Of a stretch of 64,000 nt of DNA, positions 740 to 28,904 are shown in pieces; position 1 is the first letter of the stretch; every line of letters starts with the position of its first letter. The stretch is from Saccopteryx bilineata (taxonomy: Eukaryota > Chordata > Mammalia > Chiroptera > Emballonuridae). Both the position numbers and the translations under genes were made by a program. The notes under the pieces are model-generated. The model was not told the origin of the DNA. It saw nothing but the letters and a program-made list of their open reading frames with translations, and did no database searches. The stretch is taken from contig NC_089495.1 of NCBI RefSeq assembly GCF_036850765.1, forward strand, positions 68,176,410 to 68,240,409. The letters are read 5' to 3'.

Positions 740-1345
740 TATTTTTTTTAATAAGAATGGGAATTTAAAAAGAAATAGTAACATTTTTACTGTCACATTA
801 TAAGAACTATCATATTTTACTCACTTTCTGAACATCTACTGACTGCCTCAGAACCTTTTATAGTGCCTTTGATACAGATAGGCTTTGTTCATATATGTGG
901 GATAATTCTATAGGTTAGTGTTTCTAGCACTTAAGAAATATTAACAGGGACAAGTTGTGGGATTTAGCATAAAATTTACACTATTGAGATGGGGGCACAA
1001 CTTAGCCCACAGTGGTGAATTCACTGGGAACATTTTTTTTTTTTTAATTTTCTGTTGCATGACGTTTTAGAACTGTTTCTATATAACTCTGCATCAATGG
1101 TTCCAAATCTGAAATCTTTTTTTTGGTGCATGTTCTAGCTTTTCTGTAATTTTAATTTATTTTTGTTACAGTTAATGGCATACATTGCTTTTTAAATTGG
1201 AGTTAAAGGATAACGACTCTTAGATTGAACATAACCACAAGGCAATTAATGTTTTACAAACATCACTTTTACATAATTGTAGTTGTTTTTAAATGTAAAA
1301 AATTATTTGTAAAAACACCCTCTTATTTTGTTTTAAGATTAAATC
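740..1345. other. AT-rich DNA upstream of the relict gene
   Basis: No gene recognised. It may hold the 5' leader of the relict coding sequence that begins at 1346, but no promoter, intron or terminal repeat can be demonstrated. Confidence 0.4.
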
Positions 1346-1400
1346 ATGGCTTCTTCAAGTAGGCATAAATGTAAGAATAGTCCTGACACCTTCTGTTATA

Positions 1401-1995
1401 CAGTGTGTCCATAAAGTCATGGTGCACTTTTGACCGGTCCCAGGAAAGCAACAAAAGATGATAGAAATGTGAAATCTGTACCAAATAAAAGGAAAACTCT
1501 CCCAGTTTCATACCAATTCAGTGCAGTTCGATGTGGGCTCATGCACAGATTTTTTAGGGCTCCTTAGGTAGCTAACCTATATAGCCTCTACAGACTCATC
1601 ACTGACTGATGGCCTACCAGAACGGGGTTTCTCCACCAAACTGCAGATTACCTTCAACTGCTTATCCCACCAAGTAATGTTATTCCTATGTGGTGGCACT
1701 TCATTATAAACACCGATATTCACATTGCACTTTGGTCACAAATTTGAATTTAGGGAGCCACAGAACACACTGAACTTTCCTCTGTACTGTCCACATCTCG
1801 ACTGGCATAGCAGTGGGCTGCTCTGCTGTATACACGGTGTTATGTCATCATCTGCACATGCGCACATGCTGCCACATCATTCTACAGAAACTGGGAGGGT
1901 TTTCCTTTTATTTGGTACAGATTTCACATTTCTATCATCTTTTGTTGCTTTCCTGTGACCGGTATAAAGTGTACCATGACTTTACGGACACACTG
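1401..1995 (-). mobile_element. Non-autonomous mariner/Tc1 transposon with transposase remnant
   Basis: A 595-bp cut-and-paste element bounded by TA at 1399-1400 and 1996-1997. The terminal inverted repeats start CAGTGTGTCC and stay alignable for roughly 100 bp at each end. On the minus strand the interior still reads as the N-terminal DNA-binding part of a mariner-like transposase, including a KPRSGRPSVSDESVEAI block (near 1577-1627) typical of the linker after the helix-turn-helix. The catalytic domain is absent, so this is a deletion derivative. It sits inside the relict gene, and its removal with one TA joins the flanks in frame. Confidence 0.85.
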
Positions 1996-2324
1996 TATAT
2001 GTGGCTGTTACACACTTCAACGTCAAAGGCATAATATTTCATCATTTGTGACACGTGCATATATTGCCTATTTTCAAGTTCCCCTTGGCGATCAAGACAA
2101 GAATTGGGCTTCTCATATTGTGTGTCATAATTGTGAGAAAATGCTTTGTGACTGGACAAAAGGAAAATGCAAAGAAATGCCTTTTGGTATTTCCATGGTT
2201 TGGTGTGAACCTAAGGACCACAGCAATGACTGTTATTTCTGTCTGATCCATACAAAGAGCATCGGCAAGAAAAAATGGCATATGATTGCATATCCTAATA
2301 TTCCTTCAGCAATAAGACCTATCC

Positions 2325-2599
2325 CAGTGGTCCCCAACTTTTTTGGGGCCACAGACCGGTTTAATGTCAGAAAATATTTTCAAGGACCAGCCTTTAGAGT
2401 GGGATGGATAAATGTATCACGTGACTGAGACAAGCATCAAGAGTGAGTCTGAGACGGATGTAACAGAGGGAATCTGGTCATTTTTTAAAAATAAAACATT
2501 GTTCAGACTTAAATATAAATAAAACGGAAATAATGTAAGTTATTTATTCTTTCTCTGCAGACCAGTACCATTCTGCGGCCCAGGGGTTGGGGACCACTG
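2325..2599. mobile_element. hAT-type MITE (275 bp)
   Basis: The terminal inverted repeats read CAGTGGTCCCCAAC at the left and the complement GTTGGGGACCACTG at the right. The 8-bp duplications are 2317-2324 (acctatcc) and 2600-2607 (atctatcc, one mismatch), which is the hAT signature. There is no transposase. It is inserted in the relict gene after a conserved SAIRPIP segment, and excision restores a continuous reading frame there. Confidence 0.9.
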
Positions 2600-3531
2600 A
2601 TCTATCCCACGCTCTGAGAACTCCCAGTTCCAGTTTTCAATGGTATAATTTTTTCTAAGGATGAAGAAAGTGAACATGGTGATCAAGTGTATTTTGATAA
2701 GATGCATGAGGAAATGGTTGTAGAATCTGAAGGTCTTCTTCTGATGCCAAGCAGCCATTTACCCCACAGCTATTTAGCCAACCCAAATTGAATAACTTAG
2801 TAAGAATGAGATAAAAATTGTCCTTGACTTTCTGAGCATGAGGAGAATAACTAGATCATTTGTGTAGATCTTAAAGTGGTAAATTTTCTGCTAGGACAAT
2901 AGAGAGGTTTCACAAAGCATCCTTGCTTTCTGTATTTGTGGGACAGCCGAGCTTGGGAGAAACACTGGACACAGAAGGAATGGCTGAAATATGAAGCTCT
3001 GGAAGTAGGGATGCAAAATATTGTGAATGAACCTGTAGTTAATCAAGACAGAATCATTTTCCCCCACTTCACATCAAACTTGGCTTAATGAAGCAGTTTG
3101 TTCAGGCTTTGAATAGAGAAAGTGAATGCTTTCAACATATTGTTTCTGCTTTTCCTGCCTTGTCTTTCAAGAAGATAAAAGCAGGTGTATTCGATGGACC
3201 TCAAATTTGAACCCTTATATGTGATGAAGAATTTGCCAGGAAGGTGAATAAGGAGGAGAAAGCAGCATAGCAGTCTTTTGTGGCAGATACAAAGAACTTC
3301 CTTGGCAACAAAAAAGCAGAAAACTATGAACTTCTGGATGCTGTTGGCTTTTTGCAACATTGGATGTAACATGAGCATTAAGATTCACTTCTTGAACAGT
3401 CACTTTGTTAAGTTTGCTGAAAATCTTGGAGCTGTTAGTGATGAGCAGACTACTGCTGGAGCATCAAATGAGATTGTCCTCAACAAGTACACAAACGCAA
3501 GAGCTACAAATGCAAATTTTTGCCTGAATAG

Positions 3532-5639
3532 AATTTACATAAATTTTGCGCAAATTTTATGATGAAAATAAATGTTTTAATATGTTCTATTTCAAAATTA
3601 TAGACAAATTCTGATGCAATCATATCTTTTAGAGTATTAGTGTGTTTACTGCATTATATAGATTATTACATTTTTCACAAAGATGATGCCCAAGAAGACA
3701 TTTTACTTTATTATGTTAAAGTAAATGTTGAAAATTTTACAATAAGATGAAAACCTAAAATCTTGAACTGCAAAAAAACTGTATCTTACAGAGAAAAACT
3801 AATGTCAGACTTGAGATCAGCATACTTGAATTAGGTAAGAAAAAGTGTTTTTGTGGATGCAACAAAAATTTTGTTCCCCAGTGTTATCAAAGGTAGAACT
3901 GAGTTACTTAGATGAACTGAAACCTCCTAGTTGGGGGTTAATGGTAGATAGAATGAAAAAATTATAATGTAATCACATAGGCAGGAAAGTGTGCAGGCAT
4001 CTGGGCAGCGAGATGAGCATATAGGAAATAATTTCCTAAAGGGTTTTTTGGAAATGATTAAATATAGCACTGAGATAAAGAATTGGGATGGATTAATGTT
4101 GAACTGCTTTCCTTGTAAAAAGAAGAAAACCACAACAATCCTTGAAGCTGTCCCAAATTGATATGGCTAAAATACGGTTGCTCTGAGGATCCCCATTCCT
4201 TCGAATGACTTTTTTACCTAAGATAATTTGTTAGCTACTGGATTTATTTATAGTCCTAGACCTGAAGGAAAATGCTTGTTTGACTTTTAATAAGTCCTAA
4301 TTTGTTATTTATTAACAATGTAATGCAAAAATACTTGTTGTCTTTCCATTTTTACTCTGGCAAGTATTAACATGATACTATTAGGATTCACTTTACTTTG
4401 AAAAAAAAATACACTTTAATTATTTTAAATAAGTTGGCTGAAACTTCTAGAAACCTCTTATGATATAGAAAGATATGAAGTATTTAATGCATAGTGCTAA
4501 ATTGGCACACATATACATCATGTGTTTATCAGTTTAACATTATTTTTTAGCCTTACTAGTCACAAATTCATATTGAAGAACTGGGTTGTATAACATAGTC
4601 TGTTGTTCTAAAAATATGATTTAAATTATGGATAGATATAAAAGATTATATGCTGTCTTTCTTTAAATATTTCAAATATACTAAATCTCTTCCTGCAATA
4701 AAGAAAAAAGTAAATTGATAGATTATTTCATTATATGGGGTAGCACATTCTACACCATTTTCATTTGTAAAAATTTTCAATACTTTGTCTTAATTTTTTA
4801 GTATTAAAAAAAGTTTATAAAATGAGAAATTGTATTACAATTTAATTGGACTTTATAGACTTAGGTATTGTAAGGTAATTGACACATCTGTATCTTATGA
4901 AAATGATTTGTACATAGTATCTATATATAGTCCTTTGAATATTTTTATAAAACTTTTTAAGTAAGCATTATTATTACATGACTAAAACATCATTTATTTA
5001 GTAAAGAACTGTAGAATACAGTTCATAATATCATAATTGACATTTTTCTTTGTTATGAAATACTTTATATCTCAGTTGACAAATTATTAAAAAATCTATT
5101 AAAATTTTCAAACAATTATTTTGATACTCTACAACTTATACTTGCTCTATCTTCTTCATACATGAGATAGTTTTATCAATGGCCATTCATTGAGTTGCCC
5201 TGGCCACATTAGTCTCATTTCTGTTCCATGAACCTAGGAAGAAGACTTACACACTAACTCCATGAGTCAAATTAGAGATGAGTTCTAAGGCTTAAACCAT
5301 GTATGTTACTCTTTTAAGGCCAAGAAGACAAAGTTTTAAATAAAAAGTAGTTACAGGGACTTTAAAGAGACCTGTGTAAATGTGGAGTCCTGAAGCTTAT
5401 GCTGTCTTAGCCTCATGGTCAAGCTCTTAAGCTATATGTAGTAGCCTAATGGTATTAGCCTCCTACTATGTGTCTTTGTTAGGCAATTAGCTCTACTTGG
5501 AGATAACTTCATAGCTAAGTATCTCACAACCTTTAAGTTCTGTTCTATGGTCACTGTCTCAACAATACTTACCTTATGTATCCTATCCTATCCTGTCCTA
5601 TCCTTACCTATCCAGTACTCCTGAATCCTTTATATCTTC
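3532..5639. other. Unassigned AT-rich DNA
   Basis: No gene, RNA or confidently named repeat. A short run of TCCTA-type repeats lies near 5580-5612. The first part may be the 3' untranslated region of the relict gene; an AATAAA occurs near 3569, without a clear poly(A) tail. Confidence 0.4.
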
Positions 5640-7434: not shown

Positions 7435-7705
7435 TGAGGATTCCTTTTTTTTTTTTTTTTTTTTAAATAATTTTATTTTTTTAATGGGGTGACATCAGTA
7501 AATCAGGATACATATATTCAAAGATAACAAGACCAGGGTATCTTGTCGTTCAATTATGATGCATACCCGTCACCCAAAGTCAGATTGTCCTCTGCCACCT
7601 TCTATCTTGTTTTCTTTGTGCCCCTCCCCCTCCCCCTTTCCCTCTCCCATTCCCCCCTCCCCCCCGTAACCACCACACTCTTATCAATGTCTCTTAGTTT
7701 CACTT

Positions 7706-10700
7706 TTATTTCCCAACTACATATGGAATAATGCAGTTCCTGGTTTTTTCTGATTTACTTATTTCGCTTCGTATCATGTTATCTAGATCCCACCATTTTG
7801 CTGTAAATGTTCCGATGTCATCATTTCTTATGGCTGAGTAGTATTCCATAGTGTATATGTGCCACATCTTCTTTATCCAGTCATTTATTGACGGGCTTTT
7901 TGGTTGTTTCCATGTCCTGGCCACTGTGAACAATGCTGCAATAAACATGGGGCTGCATGTGTCTTTATGTATCAATGTTTCTGAGTTTTTGGGGTATATA
8001 CCCAGTAGAGGGATTGCTGGGTCATAAGGTAGTTCTATTTTCAGTTTTTTGAGGAACCACCATACTTTCTTCCATAATGGTTGTACTACTTTACATTCCC
8101 ACCAACAGTGTATGAGGGTTCCTTTTTCTCCACAGCCTCTCCAACATTTGCTATTACCTGTGTTGCTAATAATAGCTAATCAAACAGGTGTGAGGTGGTA
8201 TCTCATTGCTGTTTTGATTTGCATTTCTCTAATAGCTAAAGAAGATGAGCATCTTTTCATATATCTGTTGGCCATTTGTATTTCTTCCTGGGAGAAGTGT
8301 CTGTTCATATCCTCTTCCCATTTTTTTATGGGATTGTTTGTTTGTTTGTTGTTGAGTTTTATGAGTTCTTTGTATATTTTGGATATTAGGCCCTTATCTG
8401 AGCTGTTGTTTGAAAATATCATTTCCCATTTAGTTGGCTTTCTGTTTATTTTGTTATCAGTTTCTCTTGCTGAGCAAAAACTTCTTAGTCTGATGTAGTC
8501 CCATTCATTAATTTTTGCCTTCACTTCTCTTGCCATTGGAGTCAAATTCATAAAATGCTCTTTAAAACCCAGATCCATGAGTTGAGTACCTATGTCTTCT
8601 TCTATGTACTTAATTGTTTCAGGTCTTATGTTTAGATCTTTGATCCATTTTGAGTTAATTTTAGTACAGGGGGAGAGACTGTAGTCCAGTTTCATTATTT
8701 TGCATGTGGCTTTCCAGTTTTCCCAGCACCATTTATTGAAGAGGCTTTCTTTTCTCCATTGTGTGTTCTTGGCCCCTTTATCAAAGATTATTTGACCATA
8801 TATATGTGGTTTTATTTCTGGACTTTCTATTCTGTTCCATTGGTCTGAGTGTCTATTTTTCTGCCAATACCATGCTGTTTTGATTGTCGTGGCCCTATAA
8901 TAGAGTTTGAAGTCAGGTATTGTAATGCCCCCAGCTTCATTCTTTTTCTTTAGGATTGCTTTAGCTATTCGGGGTTTTTTATAGTTCCATATAAATCTGA
9001 TGATTTTTTGCTCTATTTCTTTAAAAAACGTCATTGGAAGTTTGATGGGAATTGCATTGAATTTGTATATTGCTTTGGGTAATATAGCCATCTTGATTAT
9101 ATTTATTCTTCCTAGCCAAGAACAAGGTATATTCTTCCATCTCATTATATCTTTTTCAATTTCCCTTAACAATGGTTTATAGTTTTCATTATATAAGTCC
9201 TTTACATTCTTTGTTATGTTTATTCCTAAGTATTTTTTTGTTGTTGTTGCAATCGTGAAGGGGATTATTCTTTTGAGTTCCTTCTCAGTTGTTTCATTGT
9301 TGGCATATAGAAAAGCTATTGACTTCTGAATGTTAATTTTGTATCCTGCGACCTTACTGTATTGGCTTATTGTTTCAAGTAGTCTTTTTGTGGATTCTTT
9401 GGGGTTTTCGATGTATAGGATCATATCATCTGCAAAGAGTGATACCTTTACTTCTTCTTTTCCGATATGGATGCCTTTTATTTCTTTGTCTTGTCTGATT
9501 GCTGTGGCGAGAACCTCTAGTACCACATTAAATAAGAGTGGAGAGAGTGGACAACCCTGTCTTGTTCCTGATTTAAGGGGAAAAGCCTTCAGTTTAGTGC
9601 CATTTAATATGATGTTAGCTGATGGTTTATCATATATGGCCTTTATCATGTTGAGATATTTTCCTTCTATACCCATTTTGTTGAGAGTCTTAAACATAAA
9701 ATTGTGTTGTATTTTATCAAAAGCCTTTTCTGCATCTATTGATAAGATCATGTGGTTTTTGTTCTTTGTTTTGTTGATATGGTGTATTACATTAACCGTT
9801 TTGCGTATGTTGAACCATCCTTGAGAATCTGGGATGAATCCCACTTGATCATGATGTATTATTTTTTTAATATGTTGTTGTATTCGATTTGCTAGTATTT
9901 TGTTTAGTATTTTAGCATCTGTATTCATTAGAGATATTGGTCTGTAGTTTTCTTTTTTTGTGCCATCGTTGCCTGGTTTTGGTATGAGGGTTATGTTGGC
10001 CTCATAAAATGTGTTTGGAAGTATTGCTTCTTCTTCAATTTTTTGGAAGACTTTGAGTAGAATAGGAACCAAGTCTTCTTTGAATGTTTGATAAAATTCG
10101 CTGGTATAGCCGTCAGGGCCTGGACTTTTATTTTTGGGGAGGTTTTTAATGGTTTTTTCTATTTCTTCTCTACTGATAGGTCTGTTTAGGCTTTCTGCTT
10201 ATTCTTGACTCAGTCTAGGAAGGTTGTATTGTTCTAGGAATTTATCCATTTCTTCTAGGTTGTTGAATTTAGTGGCATAAAGTTTTTCATAGTATTCTAC
10301 AATAATTCTTTGTATATCTACGGTGTCCGTGGTGATTTCTCCTCTTTCATTTTGGATTTTGTTTATATGAGTTCTTTCTCTTTTTTCCTTGGTAAGTCTT
10401 GCCAAGGGTTTGTCAATTTTGTTAATCTTTTCAAAGAACCAGCTCCTTGTTCTATTAATTTTTTCTATAGTTTTTCTGTTCTCTAATTCATTTATTTCTG
10501 CTCTGATTTTTATTATCTCCTTTCTTCGGCTGGTTTTGGGTTGTCTTTGTTCTTCTTTTTCTAGTTCCTTAAGGTGGGAAGTTAAGTGGTTCACTTGGGC
10601 TCTCTCTTGTTTGTTCATATATGCCTGAATGATATGAACTTCCCTCTTATCACTGCTTTTGCTGCATCCCATAGATTCTGATATGTCGTATTGTCATTTT

Positions 10701-11532
10701 CATTAGTCTGTATAAATCTTTTGATCTCTGCACTTATTTCTTCTTTGACCCATTCATTTTTTAGAAGTATGTTGTTTAGTTTCCACATTTTTGTGGGATT
10801 TTTTTCCTCTTTTTTGCAGTTGAATTCTAGTTTCAAGGCTTTATGATCAGAAAATATGCTTGGTACAACTTCAATTTTTCTGAATTTGCTGATGTTGTTT
10901 TTGTGGCCCAACATATGGTCAATTCTTGAGAATGATCCATGTACACTGGAGAAAAATGTATACTCAGTCACTTTGGGATGAAATGTCCTGTAGATGTCTA
11001 TCATATCCAGGTGCTCTAGTGTTTTGTTTAAGGCCACTATTTCTTTGTTGATTCTCTGTTTGGATGACCGATCTAGAGCCGTCAGCGGTGTATTGAGGTC
11101 TCCAAGTATGATTGTATTTTTGTCAGTTTTTGTTTTAAGGTCAATAAGTAGCTGTCTTATATATTTTGGTGCTCCTTGGTTTGGTGCATATATATTAAGA
11201 ATTGTTATGTCTTCTTGATTCAGTGTCCCCTTAGCCATTATGAAATGGCCATTTTTATCTCTGAGTACTTTTCCTGTCTTGTAGTCAGCATTATTAGATA
11301 TGAGTATTGCTACACCTGCTTTTTTTTGGATGTTATTTGCTTGGAGTATTGTTTTCCAGCCTTTCACTTTGAATTTGTTTTTATCCTTGTTACTTAGATG
11401 AGTTTCCTGTAGGCAGCATATAGTTGGATTTTCTTTTTTAATCCATTCTGCTACTCTGTGCCTTTTTATTGGTTAGTTTAATCCGTTTACATTTAGTGTA
11501 ATTATTGATACTTGTGAGTTCCCTATTGCCAT
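7706..11532 (-). pseudogene. L1-1 ORF2 (endonuclease/reverse transcriptase), broken
   Basis: ORF2 protein nicks DNA and reverse transcribes L1 and SINE RNA. The start is the ATG at 11530-11532, matching the start of ORF2 in L1-2. Endonuclease: CCLQETH (near 11400), [13 protein letters not shown] (near 11110), RIDHMLG and SDHKALKL (near 10850). Reverse transcriptase: 630-residue open stretch 8180-10072 with [10 protein letters not shown], keeping both catalytic Asp (near 9413-9440). The C-terminal region runs to a TAA at 7706-7708. Breaks seen: stop at codon 20 (near 11473); a frameshift near 10630; a GAA-to-TAA change at 10199-10201; an AGA-to-TGA change near 8180 after HLTPV; further shifts before 7975. 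Full length would be near 1,270 residues, usual for L1. Confidence 0.92.
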
Positions 11533-11822
11533 TTTATATCTTGCTTTCTGTTAGTTTTGTGTCTTGTTTGATCCTTCTCTTTCGTTTTTCTATCTTTTGT
11601 TTTTATTTGGTTGTATTCCATACATCTTTCCTCTGTTGCTATCTTTTTTATCTCATGTGCTTCTGTGGTGGTTTTTCAATGGTGGTTACCTTTGAGTAAT
11701 GAAAAGGGTCCCTACCCTGTTCATTGTAGCAAACTATTTTGTGAGTACTTTTGCACTCCATCGTCCTTTGCTACTGTTAATCTCCATCTTCTCCCCCTCT
11801 TTCTTTTTGTTGTTGTCACAGT

Positions 11823-12854
11823 TTAAATTTGGTTGTATTGTGTTCTTCTTGGAGCTTTTACTTGTGGCTCTGTTTTTTTTTTGTTCTTTGTATCTGATTG
11901 GAGAACCCCCTTTAGTAATTCCTGGAGTGGGGGTTTTCTGATGATAAATTCCCTCATCTTTTCTGTATCTGTGAATGTTTTTATTTCTCCTTCATATTTG
12001 AAGGATAGCTTTGATGGGTATAGTATTCGTGGCTGAAAGTTTCTCTCTTTCAGGACTTTAAATATTGGGGTCCACTCTCTTCTAGCTTGTAGAGTTTCTG
12101 CTGAGAAATCTGATGATAATCTAATGGGCCTTCCTTTATATGTTGTATTCTTCTTTTCCCTGGCTGCCTTGAGAATTTTTTCTTTGCTGTTGGTTTGTGT
12201 CAATTTCATTATGATGTGCCTTGGAGTAGGTTTGTTGGGGTTAAGAAAACTCGGTGTTCTGTTTGCTTCTTGAATTTGAGGCTTTAGTTCTTTCCACAGG
12301 CTTGGGAAGTTCTCATCTATTATTTGTTTGAGTATGTTCTCCATTCCATTTTCTCTCTCTTCTCCCTCTGATATACCTATTATTATTATGTTATTCTTTT
12401 TGATGGAGTCAGATCATTCTTGTAGGGCTATCTCATTTTTTTAAATTTTTGAGTCTCTTTCTTCTTCTCTCTGTTGTACCTCAAGTTGCTTGTCTTCTAT
12501 TTCACTAATCCTCTCTTCTATCTGACCTGTTCTATTAGCTAAGCTTGTTACTTCGTTTTTCAGCTCGTGAATTGAGTTTTTCATCTCTGTTTGATTTGTT
12601 TTTATAGTTTCAATTTCTTTGGACATATATTCTTTGTGTTCATTGAGTTGTTTTCTGAGCTCCCTAAATTGCCTTTCTGTGTTTTCTTGTATATCTCGGA
12701 GGATTTTTAGGATTTCTATATTGAATTCTCTGTCATTTAGCTCCAAGTTTTCCAGTATATTAAATTTTTTCTCCATAGATTTTTCCTCATCTAGCTGTGT
12801 TACCTCTCTTTCTTTTGTATCCATGATATTCGATTTTCTCTTCCTTAATGGCAT
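11823..12854 (-). pseudogene. L1-1 ORF1 (RNA-binding coiled-coil protein), broken
   Basis: ORF1p is the trimeric nucleic-acid chaperone that packages L1 RNA. The start ATG (12852-12854) opens MPLRKRKSNIMDTKE. The first 137 residues form a Leu/Glu/Lys-rich coiled coil (heptads through ETIKTNQTEMKNSIHELKNE). A stop in KI*KNE and another after LQE, near 12440-12410, separate it from the second part (12344-11823), which holds the RRM and C-terminal domain, with RPIRLSSDFSAETLQARR and RILYPSKLSF. The corresponding residues in L1-2 are intact (KIIKNE, LQELSD), so these are private mutations. Confidence 0.9.
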
Positions 12855-14210
12855 CTGAGGGTGGTTTTGTTGATAGTATTAATGAGATTTAATAAAGAAT
12901 AAAAAGTTAAAAAAAATAAAAAATCAAAAAGAGTTGTTTTTTTTAAAAAAATTAATAATGAAATAAAGAAAAATAAAATAATAATTTTTAAAAAAAGGAA
13001 ATTATTCCCCCCCTCCTTTTTTCCTCTCCTCTCCCCTTTTTCTTGAGAAAATCTTGTGGTGAACTGTGAATTATAACAAACAATGCCTGTGATGGAGGTC
13101 TTGAATTTGGGAAAAGTAATAAAGGGGCAAAAAAAAAAAGAAAAAAAAAGAGGAAAAAAAAAAGGGGGGGCGGTATGGACCCACAAAAAGCAAATAAGGA
13201 AAAAATTTGGGTCAAGAATAAAATGATTTGCTTTTAGGTGTTGGTGTTGTCTAAGAGTTATGATGAGAGGAATAAGAGAACAGAAAAATGGGGGGACAAA
13301 TTAAAAAAATACTATTGTATTTAGTGGAACAAGAACTAGATAAAATGGAGAGTCAGGGATGGGAGCACTGCTAGTGAGTTAAAAAGGTGAAGTAAAAAAC
13401 CCCCAAAATGCCACAAACATAAGTTTGAGTCCCAGATAAGATAATTTGTTTGTTATTGAGGTTTGAATGAGAGGAGATGTAAAGGAGAAAGGAAGAAACT
13501 AATATAGAGGGAGAAAAGAAAGAGAGAGAGAGAAAAAATGAGGGAACCACTAAAAGAAGAAAAAAGAAAGGAGAGAGAGAGAGTTAAGGGTTTTGGAGTG
13601 CAACCCTCATAGAGAGAAAGGAAGAGGAGAAAAAAGATAATGGGAGATGTAACACTTATGGGTAGTGTAGTTCAAGGAGAGGAGAGAGTAAGACCGGCAG
13701 AGAATTAATCGGCCAAATTGGAGGAGGAAAAAAAGTATCAAGAATGAAGATAAGAGAAACAAACGAACAAATATAATAAAATGGGATAGGTTATAAAGTC
13801 TGCAGATTATTCTTGATTTTGCGAGGTTATCTTCTTGTTTTTTCTTTTCTCTCCCTCTTCCTGGTCGGTGACTCTGTACCCCAGGTTCTGCCCCTTTGGC
13901 ACGCTCAGGTAGAGGTTTGCAGTTGATAAGTCTCTATGGCAATGTCATGTATTGTGCTTTAGTCTCGTTGGGAGTCAAGGCTCATTAGCTTTCATAGGCT
14001 CCGACAGTGAGAGAGTCCGTGTTCCTGGAGCCTTTCTCCTAGTCTTTCCTTCCTCAATTAGTAGCCTGATAATCCATCTATGGGGTTGTTGCTGCCTCTG
14101 CCTGGATAGTAAGAGGTTCAAAGAGCTGGCAACTCCCCACTCTATTTCCACTCAGAACAGGGCTCTGGCTAAGGCTCAGTCAGTCAGAGCTGCTAGCATA
14201 ATCAGGCGGG

Positions 14211-21341: not shown

Positions 21342-21482
21342 TTTTAATTTAAATTTACTTGTTCTTTATTTTAAATATTGTATTTGTCCCCTTTTTGTTT
21401 TTTACTTTAAAATAAGATATGTGCAGTGTGCATGGGGATTTGTTCATAGTTGTTTTTTTATTTTATTTTATTTTATTTTTTT
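21342..21482 (-). other. Candidate L1 3' transduction
   Basis: On the L1 strand the element's own A-rich end (complement of the TTTTA repeats, 21453-21482) is followed by about 103 bp of non-L1 sequence (21350-21452). Then comes an AATAAA (complement of 21365-21370) and, about 16 nt later, a second A-run (complement of about 21338-21349) that abuts the target duplication. This is what is expected when transcription reads past the weak L1 poly(A) site to a downstream genomic signal and the extended RNA is inserted. Confidence 0.65.
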
Positions 21483-21743
21483 AAATAAATTTTTATTAAT
21501 GGTAATGGGATGACATTAATAAATCAGGGTACATATATTCAAAGAAAACATGTCTAGGTTATTTTGTCATTAAATTATGTTGCGTACCCCTCGCCCAAAG
21601 TCAGATTGTCCTCCGCCACCCTCTATCTAGTTCTCTGTGCCCCTCCCCCTCCCCCTAACTCTCTCCCTCCATCCCTCCCATGTCCTCCCTCCCCCCACCC
21701 CTGGTAACCACCACACTCTTGTCCATGTCTCTTAGTCTCATTT

Positions 21744-24700
21744 TTATGTTCCACCAATGTATGGAATCATGTAGTTCTTGTTTTTTTCTGATTTACTTAT
21801 TTCACTCCTTATAATGTTATCAAGATCCCCCACCATTTTGCTGTAAATGATCTGATGTCATCATTTCTTATGGCTGAGTAGTATTCCATAGTGTATATGT
21901 GCCACATCTTCTTTATCCAGTCTTCTATTGAAGGGCTTTTTGGTTGTTTCCATGTCTTGGCCACTGTGAACAGTGCTGCAATGAACATGGGGCTACATGT
22001 GTCTTCACGTATCAATGTTTCTGAGGTTTTGGGGTATATACCCAGTAGAGGGATTGCTGGGTCATAAGGTAGTTCTATTTGCAGTTTTTTGAGGAACCAC
22101 CATACTTTCCTCCATAATGGTTGTACTACTTTACAGTCCCACCAACAGTGTATGAGGGTTCCTTTTTCTCCACAGCCTCTCCAACATTTGCTATTACCCA
22201 TCTTGTTGATAATAGCTAATCTAACAGGGGTGAGGTGGTATCTCGTAGTTTTGATTTGCATTTCTCTAATAACTAATGAAGCTGAGCATCTTTTCATATA
22301 TCTGTTGGCCATTTGTATTTCTTCCTGGGAGAAATGTCTGTTCATGTCCTCTTCCCATTTTTTTATGGGATTGTTTGTTTGTTTGTTGTTGAGTTTTATG
22401 AGTTCTTTGTAAATTTTGGATATTAGGCCCTTATCTGAGCTGTTGTTTGAAAATATCATTTCCCATTTAGTTGGCTGTCTGTTTATTTTGATATCAGTTT
22501 CTCTTGCTGAGCAAAAACTTTTTATTCTGATGTAGTCCCATTCATTTATCTTTGCCTTCACTTCTCTTGCCATTGGAGTCAAGTTCATAAAATGTTCTTT
22601 AAAACCCAGGTCCATGATTTTAGTACCTATGTCTTCTTCTATGTACTTTACTGTTTCAGGTCTTATATTTAGGTCTTTGATCCATTTTGAATTAATTTTA
22701 GTACACGGGGACAGGCTGTAGTCGAGTTTCATTATTTTGCATGTGGCTTTCCAGTTTTTCCAACACCATTTGTTGAAGAGGCTTTCTTTTCTCCATTGTA
22801 TGTTGTTGGCCCCTTTATCAAAGATTATTTGACCATATATATGTGGTTTTATTTCTGGGCTTTCTATTCTGTTCCATTGGTCTGAGTGTCTATTTTTCTG
22901 CCAATACCATGCTGTTTTGATTATCGTGGCCCTATAATATAGTTTAAAGTCAGGTATTGTAATGCCCCCAGCTTCATTCTTTTTCCTTAGGATTGTTCTG
23001 GCTATTCGGGGTTTTTTATAGTTCCATATAAATCTGATGATTTTTGTTCCATTTCTTTAAAAAATCTCATAGGGATTTTGATGGGAATTGCATTAAATTT
23101 GTATATTGCTTTGGGTAATATGGCCATTTTGATTATATTTATTCTTCCTATCCAAGAACAAGGAATATTTTTCCATCTCATTGTATCTTTTTCGATTTCC
23201 CTTAACAATGCTTTGTAATTTTCATTATATAGGTCCTTTACGTTCTTTGTTATGTTTATTCCTAGGTATTTTATTTTTTTTTTGTTGCAATCGTGAAGGG
23301 GATTATTTTTTTTTAGTTCGTTTTCTAATATTTCATTGTTGGCATATAGAAAGGCTATGGACTTTTGTATGTTAATTTTGTATCCTGCGACCTTACTGTA
23401 TTGGTTTATTGTTTCTAATAATCTTTTTGTGGAGTCCTTCGGGTTTTTGATGTATAGGATCATATCATCAACAAAAAGTGATACCTTTACTTCTTCTTTT
23501 CCGATATGAATGCCTTTTATTTCTTTGTCTTGTCTGATTGCTCTGGCCAGAACTTCTAGCACCACGTTAAATAAGAGTGGAGAGAGTGGACAACCCTGTC
23601 TTGTTCCTGATTTAAGGTAGAAAGTCCTCAGTTTTATGCCGTTTAATATGATGTTGGCTGATGGTTTATCATATATAACCTTTATCATGTTGAGATATTT
23701 TCCTTCTATACCCATTTTGTTGAGAGTCTTAAACATAAAATTGTGTTGTATTTTATCAAAAGCCTTTTCTGCATCTATTGATAAGATCATGTGGTTTTTG
23801 TTCTTTGTTTTGTTGATATGGTATATTACGTTAACCGTTTTGCGTATGTTGAACCATCCTTGAGAATCTGGGATGAATCCCACTTGATCATGATGTATTA
23901 TTTTTTTAATATGTTGTTGTATTCGGTTTGCCAGTATTTTGTTTAGTATTTTAGCATCTGTATTCATTAGAGATATTGGTCTGTAGTATTCTTTCTTTGT
24001 GCCATCCTTGCCAGGTTTTGGTATGAGGGTTATGTTGGCCTCATAAAATGTGTTTGGAAGTATTGCTTCTTCTTCAATTTTTTGGAAGACTTTGAGTAGA
24101 ATAGGAACCAAGTCTTCTTTGAATGTTTGATAGAATTCACTAGTATAACCGTCTGGGCCTGGACTTTTATTTTTGGGGAGGTTTTTAATAGTTTTTTCTA
24201 TTTCCTCCCTGCTGATTGGTCTGTTTAGGCTTTCTGCTTCTTCATGACTCAGTCTAGGAAGGTTGTATTGTTCTAGGAATTTATCCATTTCTTCTAGATT
24301 GTTGTGTTTGGTGGCATATAATTTTTCATAGTATTCTACAATAATTCTTTGTATATCTATGATGTCTGTGGTGATCTCTCCTCTTTCATTTTGGATTTTA
24401 TTTATTTGAGTCCTGTGTCTTTTTTTCCTTGGTGAGTCTTGCCAAGGGTTTGTCAATTTTGTTGATCTTTTCAAAGAACCAGCTCCTTGTTTTATTGATT
24501 TTTTCTATAGTTTTTCTGTTCTCTATTTCATTTATTTCTGCTCTGATTTTTATTATCTCCTTTCTTCGGCTGGTTTTGGGTTGTTTTTGTTCTTCTTTTT
24601 CTAGTTCCTTAAGGTGTGAAGTTAAGTGGTTTACTTTGGCTCTCTCTTGTTTGTTCATATAGGCCTGAAGTGATATGAACTTTCCTCTTATTACTGCTTT

Positions 24701-25568
24701 TGCTGCATCCCAGAGATTCTGATATGTCGTATTTTCATTTTCATTTGTCTGTATATATCTTTTGATCTCTGCGCTTATTTCTTCTTTGACCCATTCATTT
24801 TTTAGAAGTATGTTGTTTAGTTTCCACATTTTTGTGGGTTTCCCCCCTCTTTTTTGCAGTTGAATTCTAGTTTCAAGGCTTTATGATCAGAAAATATGCT
24901 TGGTACAATTTCAATTTTTCTAAATTTGCTGATATTGTCTTTGTGGCCCAACATATGGTCAATTCTCATGTTCCATGTACACTAGAGAAAAATGTATACT
25001 CTGTCGCTTTGGGATGAAGTGTCCTGTAGATGTCTATCATATCCAGGTGTTCTAGTATTTCGTTTAAGGCCACTATATCTTTATTGATTCTCTGTTTGGA
25101 TGACCGATCTAGAGCCGTCAGCGGTGTATTGAGGTCTCCAAGTATGATTGTATTTTTGTTAGTTTTTGTTTTAAGGTCAATAAGTAGCTGTCTTATATAT
25201 TTTGGTGCTCCTTGGTTTGGTGCATATGTATTAAGGATTGTTATGTCTTCTTGATTCAACTTCCCCTTAATCATTATGAAATGACCATTTTTGTCTCTGA
25301 GTACTTTTTCTGTCTTGTAGTCAGCATTATTAGATATGAGTATTGCTACACCTGCTTTTTTTTGGGTGTTGTTTGCTTGGAGTATTGTTTTCCAGCCTTT
25401 CACTTTGAATTTGTTTTTGTCCTTGTTGCTTAGATGTGTTTCTTGTAGGCAGCATATAGTTGGATTTTCTTTTTTAATCCATTCTGCTACTCTGTGTCTT
25501 TTTATTGGTAAGTTTAATCTATTTACATTTAGTGTAATTATTGACACTTGTGGGTTCCCTACTGCCAT
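21744..25568 (-). pseudogene. L1-2 ORF2 (endonuclease/reverse transcriptase), broken
   Basis: The start MAVGNPQVSIITLNVN is intact and runs 200 residues (25568-24966) with [14 protein letters not shown] and ILGDLNTPL before a deletion shifts the frame near 24965. A linker segment (24829-24398) and the reverse transcriptase (24474-23002, 490 residues) follow, with a shift near 24425 between them. The RT has the active-site loop as [10 protein letters not shown] (near 23452-23480): both Asp are kept, but Ala of FADD is Val. A further shift near 23040 precedes the C-terminal region, which includes a cysteine motif ([18 protein letters not shown], near 22150). An extra C near 21828 shifts the last residues; the ancestral stop is the TAA at 21744-21746. 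At least four frameshifts, so inactive. Confidence 0.92.
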
Positions 25569-25893
25569 TTTATAAATTGCTTTCTGTTAGTTTTATATCT
25601 AGTTTGATTCTTCTCTTTTGTTTTTCTATCATTTGTTTTTGTTTGTTTGTGTTCCATATTTCTTTCCTCTGTTGCTACCTTTTTTAAGTCAAGTGTTTTT
25701 CTGGTGGTTTTTTCAAGGGTGGTTACCATTAAGTAATGAAAAGGGTACCTACCATATTCATTGTAGTACCCTATCTTATAAGTATTTCTGCACTTCATCT
25801 TCCTTTGCTACTGTTAATCTCCATCCTCTTCCCCCTTTTTTTCCTTTGTTGTCACAGTTTAAGTTTGGTTTTATTGTGTTCTTGGTGAAGCTG

Positions 25894-26889
25894 TTACTTG
25901 TGGTGTTGTTTTCTTTTGTTCTTTGAATCTGGTTGGAAAACCCCCTTTAGTATTTCCTGGAGTGGGGACTTTCTGTTGATAAATTCTCTCATCTTTTCTG
26001 TATTTGTGAATGTTTTTATATCTCCTTCATACTTGAAGGATAGCTTTGATGGGTATAGTATTCTTGGCTGAAAGTTCCTCTCTTTCAGGGCTTTAAATAT
26101 TGGGGTCCACTCTCTTCTAGCTTGTAGAGTTTCTGCTGAGAAATCTGATGATAATCTAATAGGCCTTCCTTTATATGTTGTACTCTTCTTTTCCCTGGCT
26201 GCCTTGAGAATTTTTTCTTTGTCATTGGTTTGTGTCATCTTTATTATGATGTGCCTTGGAGTGGGTTTGTTGGGGTTAAGAAAACTCGGTGTTCTGTTTG
26301 CTTCTTGAATTTGAGGCTTTAGTTCTTTCCACAGGCTTGGGAAGTTCTCGTCTATTATTAGTTTGAGTATATTCTCCATTCCATTTTCTTTCTCTTCTCC
26401 CTCTGATATACCTGTTATTCTTATGTTATTCTTTCTGATGGAGTCAGACAATTCCTGTAGGGCTTTCTCATTTTTTATTATTTTTGAGTCTCTTTCTTCT
26501 TCTCTCTGTTTTGCCTCAAGTTGTTTGTCTTCTATTTCACTAATCTTATCCTCAATCTGGGCTGTTCTGTTAGCTAAGCTTGTTACTTCGTTTTTCAGCT
26601 CGTGAATTGAGTTTTTCATTTCTGTTTGATTTGTTTTAATAGTTTCAATTTCCTTGGTAATATATTCTTTGTGTTCATTGAGTTGTTTTCTGATCTCCCT
26701 ATATTGCCTTTCTGTGTTTTCTTGTATATCTCTGAGTATTTTTAAGATTTCTATTTTAAATTCTCTGTCATTTAGCTCCAAGGCTTCCAATATGTTAAGT
26801 CTTTTCTCCATAGATTTTTCCACATCTATTTGTGTTACCTCTCATTCTTTTGTATCCATAATGTTCGGTTTCCTCTTTCTTATTGGCAT
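25894..26889 (-). pseudogene. L1-2 ORF1, nearly intact with one early stop
   Basis: Trimeric RNA-binding chaperone of L1. From an internal Met (26823) it is open for 309 residues: coiled coil (ETIKTNQTEMKNSIHELKNE), RRM-like part (KNNIRITGISEGEEKENG) and C-terminal domain (RPIRLSSDFSAETLQARR). The ancestral start, by comparison with L1-1, is the ATG at 26887-26889 (MPIRKRKPNIMDTKE); a TGA directly after that stretch, near 26845, interrupts the first codons. A protein lacking about 22 N-terminal residues could still be made from the internal Met; this is inference. Confidence 0.9.
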
Positions 26890-28904
26890 CTGAGGGTGGT
26901 CTTGTTGATAGCACTAATTAGAATTAATAAAGAGTAAAAAGTAAAAAAAAAAAGGGTAAAACACCCCACACAAAAAAAACAGTAATAATTTATTATTTCC
27001 CCCTTTGTTTCTTTCTTCTCTTTCCCTCCTCTCCCCTCCTCAGGGAAATATCGTGCCTATAATGGAGGGCCTGATTTGGGGTGAAGAGTTCAAGGGGCAA
27101 AAATAGGGAGTAGTGACCTACTAAATGCAAAAAAAAAAAAAAAAAGGAAGAAAATTTTAGACAAGCATAAGATGATTTGCTTGTAAGTGATGGTCAACTA
27201 AGAGATATAATGAGAGGGATAAGAGGAAACCAGAAAAAAGGACCAAAAAAAGAATAATAAAGAAGAAAAAAATAAAAATAATAAGTAAATATCTGTTGTA
27301 TTAAGTGGGGCGAAGACTAAATATAATGGAGACCTTGGGTTGGGAGGACCCAAAATGCCACAAAAATAAACAAACAAGAAAAAAACAAAAACAAAAGCAA
27401 AAAAGAAAAATAAAGCCAAAAAAAGCCTTGAGTCCCAAATTAACTAATTCATTCGTGATTGAGGATTAAATGGGAGGAAAGTAAAACGAGAAAAGAAAAA
27501 ACAAATAGAAAGGAAAAAATAAGAAAAAGAGAAAAACGAAGGAAGAAATAAAAAAGGAAGGGAAAAAAACAAAATAAAGCAAATAAAAAAAAAAAAACAA
27601 AAGAGGAGAGAGTGAGAGTTAAGTGTTTTGGAGTATAACCTTAAAGGAGGGTGAGGATGAAGAAGAGAAATAAAATGTAACACTTATGGGTAATGTAGTT
27701 CAAGAAAAGGGAAGCATAAGATGGGTAGAGAATAGAAGGACCAAGGTGGAGGAAATAAAGGCAATAAGATAGAAGAAACAAACAACAACAACAAAAAAAT
27801 TAGTGGAACAAATTGTAAAGTCTGTGGATTTTTCTTGATTTTGAGAGGTTAACTTCTTCCTTTTTCTTTTCTCTCCCTCTTCCTGGTCGGTGACTCTGTA
27901 CCCCAGGCTCTGCCCCTGTGTCACACTTAGGTAGGGATTTGCAGTTGATGGGATTCTATGGCAATGTCATATAATTGGCTTTAGTCTTGCTGGTAGTCAA
28001 GGCTTGTTGGCGTTTGCAGGGTCCAACGATGAGAGAGTTTGCTTTCCTGGATTCTCTCTCCTAGTCCCCCCTTTCTGAATTAGCAGCCTGGTGATCCAGC
28101 TATAAGGCTGCAACTGCATCTGCCTGGGGAGTAAGAGGCTCAAAGAGCTGGGAAATCCCCACTCTATCCCTACTCAGTGCAAGGCTTTGGGAAAGGCTCT
28201 GGCAGTCAGGGCCTCCAGAGTAATCAGGCGGGGGTGGGAGTCAATTGTTGTCAAGGTGACTGTTCAGTGCCTAGCATTCAGTTGGACCTCTCAACCCAGG
28301 CTTTCCACACTTTGTAGCCTGTTTTGCCTGGGAAGAAGAGGCACTAGTCTCTGCTTGCGACTAGTGTAGTATAGATCTTATTATCTGCCAAGTCCCTCTT
28401 GTTAGCGTTTATCCTTGAATATGGAGGCTCTATCAATCAGAAGTTGCCCCCACCCCTTTAGCGAGAGGCACTAAAAAATATCACGCCTCTTGTCTTGGGT
28501 CGCTGAACTGAGAGAGATCTTATCAATTAGAACCGAGGGTGCGCAGATTTCATGGGTTAAGCTAATTTCAGTGATTGGGTCGCAGCTGTGCTTCCGAAGG
28601 TATTTTAGGCTGCCTGCGCGCGCCCCTCCCCCAACGCTTGATTGTTAGCTTGAATGGCTGGTTGAGGTGCCCCGCCCACGGAGAGAATCTCCCAAGTAGA
28701 AGACCACCCTGGCGCCTCTCCCGCTCGCCCTGCCGCTGGCGGCTGGATCGCACCAGGCACAGGATAATGGGGCACCCTGGGTGTGCGGGCCAGTAGGGCG
28801 CTCTGGGCGTGTGGAATGCCCAGGGCACATGCGCGAATGGGGTGCTCCGGGCACCGGTGGCTGGCGACTCTCACTCACAGTGCGCGGGCTGCTGGGAACG
28901 TTAG

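Follow-up and report, generated by a model that had tools for sequence, protein, structure and literature searches.

The window, a 64,000-nt stretch of the genome of the emballonurid bat Saccopteryx bilineata (contig NC_089495.1, positions 68,176,410 to 68,240,409 of the forward strand), holds at 1022-3883 what we are confident is a dead copy of Chapaev3, a cut-and-paste DNA transposon of the CMC group. The original prediction, made from the letters alone, had described 1346-3531 as an intronless relict, with Cys/His and other blocks, of an unnamed mobile gene family. The blocks are real: HIVCHNCEKML, DCYFC, PCFLYLWDSR, PPLHIKLGLMKQF, KAGVFDGPQI, NFLGNKKAENY, GAVSDEQ and KRKSYKCKFLPE are all found in the translation of this interval, across changing frames. 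The interval covers the extent of the reading frame only, and terminal repeats, which the prediction had suggested seeking outside it, lie at both ends of the whole element:

1022..3883 (+): whole Chapaev3 copy of the non-autonomous subfamily carrying internal deletions A and B, including two younger inserts; delimited by similarity edges common to other copies and by both terminal motifs
1022..1035 (+): 5' terminal inverted repeat CACTGGGAACATTT, one G short of the usual CACTGGGGAAC
1346..1400 (+): opening 18 codons of the transposase frame
1401..1995 (+): mariner-like insert CAGTGTGTCC...GGACACACTG, flanked by TA (1399-1400 and 1996-1997); its inverted arms of 109 bp are 94.5% alike
1996..2324 (+): coding part of the N-terminal Cys-rich domain, which in the family weakly resembles zf-AD
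2325..2599 (+): hAT-like insert CAGTGGTCCCCAAC...GTTGGGGACCACTG with flanks ACCTATCC/ATCTATCC, alike at 7 of 8 positions
2600..2805 (+): middle coding part, ending at deletion A
2805 (+): junction of deletion A, where 324 bp of copy L014 are missing (positions 900-1223 of this reference, roughly codons 194-301, with the first catalytic Asp)
2805..3448 (+): transposase part in broken frames, retaining the second catalytic Asp, one Cys (the first) of C(2)C, LH and H(4)H, and the SDEQ Glu
3445..3448 (+): junction of deletion B at a GCAG microhomology, where about 76 bp directly behind the Glu are gone
3449..3531 (+): C-terminal tail of the transposase frame, with the end KRKSYKCKFLPE
3870..3883 (+): 3' terminal inverted repeat TTTGTTCCCCAGTG

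The copy carries private stops and frameshifts, and the second Cys of C(2)C reads Tyr. The two hits by DNA transposons that had been predicted are both present, the mariner-like insert between two TA and the hAT-like one between its 7-of-8 flanks; neither belongs to the aligned Chapaev3 unit.

Termini, target sites and transposase

The 113-aa piece at 1997-2335 matched the host genome (2.61 Gb) at all of the 150 scored candidates (4,365 were found at a first look). We drew 40 copies from the best of these and aligned them, together with the window copy, to L014 (2,391 bp) as reference. Of the first 20 copies, 18 were similar to the window from 1018-1039 up to 3883-3896; in L016 and L020 the similarity stopped at 3745 and 3764. 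The ends are inverted repeats of the CAC ... GTG type (CACTGGGGAACA / TGTTCCCCAGTG, window copy included), and both were located in 36 of the 41 rows. Since the right (3') end of L020 is doubtful, this copy was dropped from the count of target duplications. Identical 3-bp flanks were found in 17 of the remaining 35 copies, against 7.8 by shuffled flanks, and none of 5,000 shuffles reached 17. There was no excess of identity for 2-bp and 4-bp flanks, and 5-bp flanks were identical in one of 36 copies, i.e., the excess is confined to 3 bp. The 17 exact duplications comprise 10 TAA, 6 TTA and one TAT, so that 16 are TWA; A precedes (-4) 16 of the 17, and T follows (+4) 13 of the 17.

Full-length copies measure about 2.4 kb and have a single transposase frame of about 563 codons, with a Cys-rich N-terminal domain and a core with the catalytic Asp, Asp and Glu (DDE). 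L024 has a 572-aa stop-to-stop frame, and the column majority of the alignment has 563 open codons. Of 2,350 candidate proteins, 1,657 matched a read-through of the window pieces at E <= 1e-3, and P0001 of Saccopteryx leptura did so best (1.5e-208), which cannot be put down to chance. Six eukaryotes are named among the best 120 of these matches: S. leptura, the frog Ranitomeya, the snake Erythrolamprus, the lizard Rhineura, Hydra and the firefly Pyrocoelia. The firefly bears out the likeness to arthropod proteins proposed in the prediction. Many of the best 120 relatives sit on contigs of 2-3.5 kb. One of the relatives, P0019, is a Chapaev3 transposase filed under a Pseudomonadota label on a 2.7-kb contig, and is probably eukaryotic contamination.

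The residues D281, D335, C354/C357, L402/H403, H511/H516 and E530 recur across 64 relatives and give the set DDE, C(2)C, LH and H(4)H. The transposase core of the family is predicted to fold like Transib and RAG1, the latter an enzyme of the human immune system: the model of one relative, P0002, on which this prediction is based, has a RAG1/Transib-like catalytic (RNase H) fold, with 9-13% sequence identity only in the alignments of RAG1/Transib to it. A sequence-only search of solved structures found no relative. Transib elements make 5-bp target duplications, which the bat element does not show. Chapaev3 transposases have an N-terminal zinc domain, Chapa; in the relatives of the bat element this end is Cys-rich, and its matches are all weak (zf-AD in 28 of the 64 relatives, best E 0.0018, under the Pfam cut-off; RAG1_imp_bd in one of 64, E 0.011). 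The three best Foldseek matches of its model (P0002, about residues 14-112; predicted local distance difference test score, pLDDT, 64) are ZAD domains at non-significant E-values of 0.76 to 2.0. The zinc domain of the transposon and ZAD may be related.

Chapaev3 has been described by its CAC/GTG ends, an A-TWA-T target, the DDE residues along with C(2)C, LH and H(4)H, an RNase H fold as in RAG1/Transib, and elements of about 2.3-2.45 kb whose transposase of about 560 aa is mostly encoded in one exon (PMC4079192). The family shows all of these, the fold by prediction and the window copy lacking an exact duplication and the first Asp, and the label "unnamed" is therefore not right, whereas the mobile and multicopy character that came with it is confirmed by thousands of copies with common termini. 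The reference list of PMC4411706 dates the Repbase naming of the group to 2007-2008. The impression of an unnamed family arose because no Pfam family scored above the cut-off for the five window pieces or the full-length relatives, and NCBIfam gave no match for window pieces or relatives. These same blanks, and a comparison with Chapaev3 by description, would suit a CMC lineage apart from Chapaev3, a sister group not yet named. We find this very unlikely, as the target, the ends, the size and the motifs, like the one frame coding for a transposase of about 563 aa, agree with the published account of Chapaev3.

PIF/Harbinger elements also leave 3-bp TWA duplications, and encode an IS5-type transposase and a second, Myb-like protein. 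The duplication taken by itself would fit such an element, but the CAC/GTG ends, the C(2)C-LH-H(4)H residues and the RAG1/Transib-like predicted fold leave this explanation a negligible probability; the single frame seen folds best like RAG1/Transib in prediction, and no search was aimed at a second protein. Sola, our first guess, was given up when the literature yielded nothing for it and the evidence favoured Chapaev3. A viral or a prokaryotic origin was likewise rejected, no relative being found among 18 pattern matches in a viral contig collection or 17 in a collection of genome contigs, and P0019 being probably a contaminant.

The Chapaev3 families Garfield, Merrow and Conan share with the bat element the CAC/GTG ends, the TWA duplication between A and T and a patchy spread over distant animals, Conan being found in a mammal, the tenrec (PMC4079192). 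Garfield and Merrow are also alike in size (2.3-2.45 kb) and in their transposases (556-562 aa, with C(2)C, LH, H(4)H and DDE), which are encoded in two exons and not in one frame as in the bat (PMC4079192). Our tree of the transposases (121 rows, quick method, support by the Shimodaira-Hasegawa-like approximate likelihood ratio test, SH-aLRT, only) pairs the two bat sequences with full support inside a 22-row clade, of which one row is labelled Pseudomonadota. The lizard groups with Hydra and one further row, and the frog and the snake fall in another clade. This tree conflicts with host relationships and suits a horizontal spread of the kind published for other Chapaev3 families; horizontal entry into the bat lineage is likely.

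Several points weigh against our reading of the element and its origin. Chapaev3 was assigned by its published description only. The terminal motif was searched near the similarity edge with up to 3 mismatches in 10, and is thus partly there by construction. Exact 3-bp duplications are absent from 18 of the 35 copies, and from the window copy itself, which is flanked by ATT/TTA. The copies were chosen with the window's own N-terminal piece, which biases the shares of the subfamilies. The mammal genome searched is that of S. bilineata only, on which the horizontal entry has to be judged.

Inherited deletions, copy number and age

The 41 rows comprise three full-length copies (L014, L024, L035), 21 with deletion B, 15 with both A and B (the window copy among them) and two that are otherwise cut (L029, L042). 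Overall, deletion A is found in 15 rows and deletion B in 36; no classed row has A without B. Deletion A removes the first catalytic Asp (the window row has no codon there) and B the stretch directly behind the catalytic Glu. The junctions are common to the rows. For A, 14 of the 15 rows are within 3 mismatches of one 32-mer, and the fifteenth is 12 away; for B, this is the case of 34 of the 36, with the remaining two at 7 and 12. Rows lacking the respective deletion are 10-13 mismatches away at both junctions. In the genome, the B junction was found at 2,458 places (control: 0).

The two internal losses of the window copy are thus inherited from a non-autonomous founder. Private stops and frameshifts show that this copy also changed on its own, as would be expected if it had inserted at full length and lost both pieces independently. 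Such a history is hardly credible given that the same junctions recur across rows and, for B, throughout the genome. The prediction that the element arrived and then decayed is right for the point changes and the inserts, which came later, and wrong for the two losses: these are common to other copies, and the window copy was therefore already defective when it inserted.

From the known chemistry of the family, the enzyme would bind both ends, excise the element and, with a 3-bp stagger, join it at ATWAT. The subfamily of the window copy had already been shortened by about 76 bp directly after the catalytic Glu when the 324 bp holding the first Asp were lost as well. Having no working transposase of its own, the window copy presumably moved in trans, by transposase made elsewhere. 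Point changes, the mariner-like insert and the hAT-like insert followed its insertion.

The database and genome searches proposed with the prediction thus gave, besides the 1,657 proteins, a family of great size. The 28-base 3' end has 2,670 matches in the genome at up to 3 mismatches (backward control: 0), and as 31 of the 41 known rows are detectable in this way, the true copy number is nearer 3,500. Derivatives with deletion B are the majority of the counted copies. The tenrec Conan has 88 counted copies (PMC4079192), against thousands in the bat, and many of the bat copies, unlike those of Garfield, Merrow and Conan, are nested internal-deletion derivatives. A single-copy gene, or a lack of arthropod relatives, had been named as outcomes that would speak against the prediction; neither was found. 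An ordinary host gene or processed pseudogene might look like an intronless coding relict, and S. leptura has an annotated protein with the same domain. Yet thousands of copies with common termini and an excess of target duplications make this extremely improbable, the more so as, in the S. leptura model, exons of the gene DLGAP5 come after a transposon frame.

Excluding CpG sites, the 15 A+B rows and the 21 B rows differ from their subfamily majority by 3.2% on average, and the window copy by 4.1%. Pairwise mean divergences are about twice the divergence from the majority, as in a burst. Mammals accumulate some 2.2e-9 substitutions per site and year. For the tenrec, the rate is 2.9e-9 (PMC4079192). 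By one rate or the other, the burst is roughly 11-15 million years old.

Other repeats lie around these copies. A short repeat at about 360-730 of the window, presumably a bat short interspersed nuclear element (SINE), recurs at 68-79% likeness beside several Chapaev3 copies (e.g., L010, L013, L017). Upstream of the Chapaev3 copy L023, positions 399-509 and 704-812 of that extract hold sequence related to the two arms of the mariner-like insert in the window. Further along the window, a 5.5-kb repeat is present twice (7445-12920 and 21461-26953, 92% alike); its minus-strand frames read like reverse transcriptase of LINE-1 (long interspersed nuclear element 1).

The DLGAP5-linked copy and wider implications

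The best relative, P0001, has 681 aa and 12 member sequences and is annotated in S. leptura as a single protein. Up to about residue 563 it is a Chapaev3 transposase; the stretch after that agrees at 98 of 103 positions with DLGAP5 of S. bilineata (residues 678-780). In the latter species the gene occupies C4:44978262-45021371 (+), where C4 is a contig of the genome, and inverted copies of two 3' exons are found at C4:45167570-45176029. The Chapaev3 copy adjoining these (about C4:45177719-45180813) reads in one frame over 564 aa, across which it is 97.7% identical to P0001 and has a single stop, at codon 105. The copies of the two species are apparently orthologous. We extracted the regions concerned (L050 and L051, C4:45175700-45182600; L049, C4:45012500-45015900). 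The 3' end of the element meets the DLGAP5 intron within ATAAT, one T short of a clean TWA insertion. Its 5' flank has no match in the 1.9 kb of DLGAP5 intron compared, and the corresponding intron of DLGAP5 itself (L049) holds no element. Both a transposon end that joined DLGAP5 and was then duplicated, and recombination between two copies, would fit.

It is conceivable, if unlikely, that S. leptura has an intact, expressed young fusion gene of a full-length transposase with a RAG1-like core and duplicated 3' DLGAP5, in which a transposon end joined the ATAAT of the DLGAP5 intron. In S. bilineata, the stop speaks against a conserved function of the fusion. The linked copy has 30 nonsynonymous and 20 synonymous changes against 1,738 and 648 in the pool (p 0.054), a sign of selection that is suggestive at most in a frame with an in-frame stop. 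The open copy L024 (C4:288231600-288237200), with its 572-aa frame, was also considered for domestication. This was rejected (35 nonsynonymous and 20 synonymous changes against the same pool, Fisher p 0.17), and its conserved LH reads LY. L024 was also rejected as the orthologue of P0001: it has 11 of 29 P0001 changes in common, with 6 of 27 in the next best copy.

Paulat et al. (2023) is reportedly a study on bat transposons. Our literature search, which had most subscription journals outside its reach, found no Chapaev paper for bats among the papers listed. PMC4298943 describes hAT and piggyBac cases acquired horizontally by bats. The hAT and mariner elements of bats are DNA transposons too, of other superfamilies, and appear here as the two younger inserts in the Chapaev3 copy. 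Chapaev3 itself is an already named kind of element, previously reported from one mammal, the tenrec (PMC4079192); its large spread in S. bilineata may be undescribed, and bats are the mammals best known for recent activity of DNA transposons. A large protein family of animals, nameless in Pfam, gains a name and a mechanism from the combined evidence of sequence, ends, target site and predicted fold. The nested deletion subfamilies indicate that a transposase-defective derivative can form much of a family's copies, and at the DLGAP5 junction a RAG1-like transposase that has come to lie beside host exons can be put to the test.
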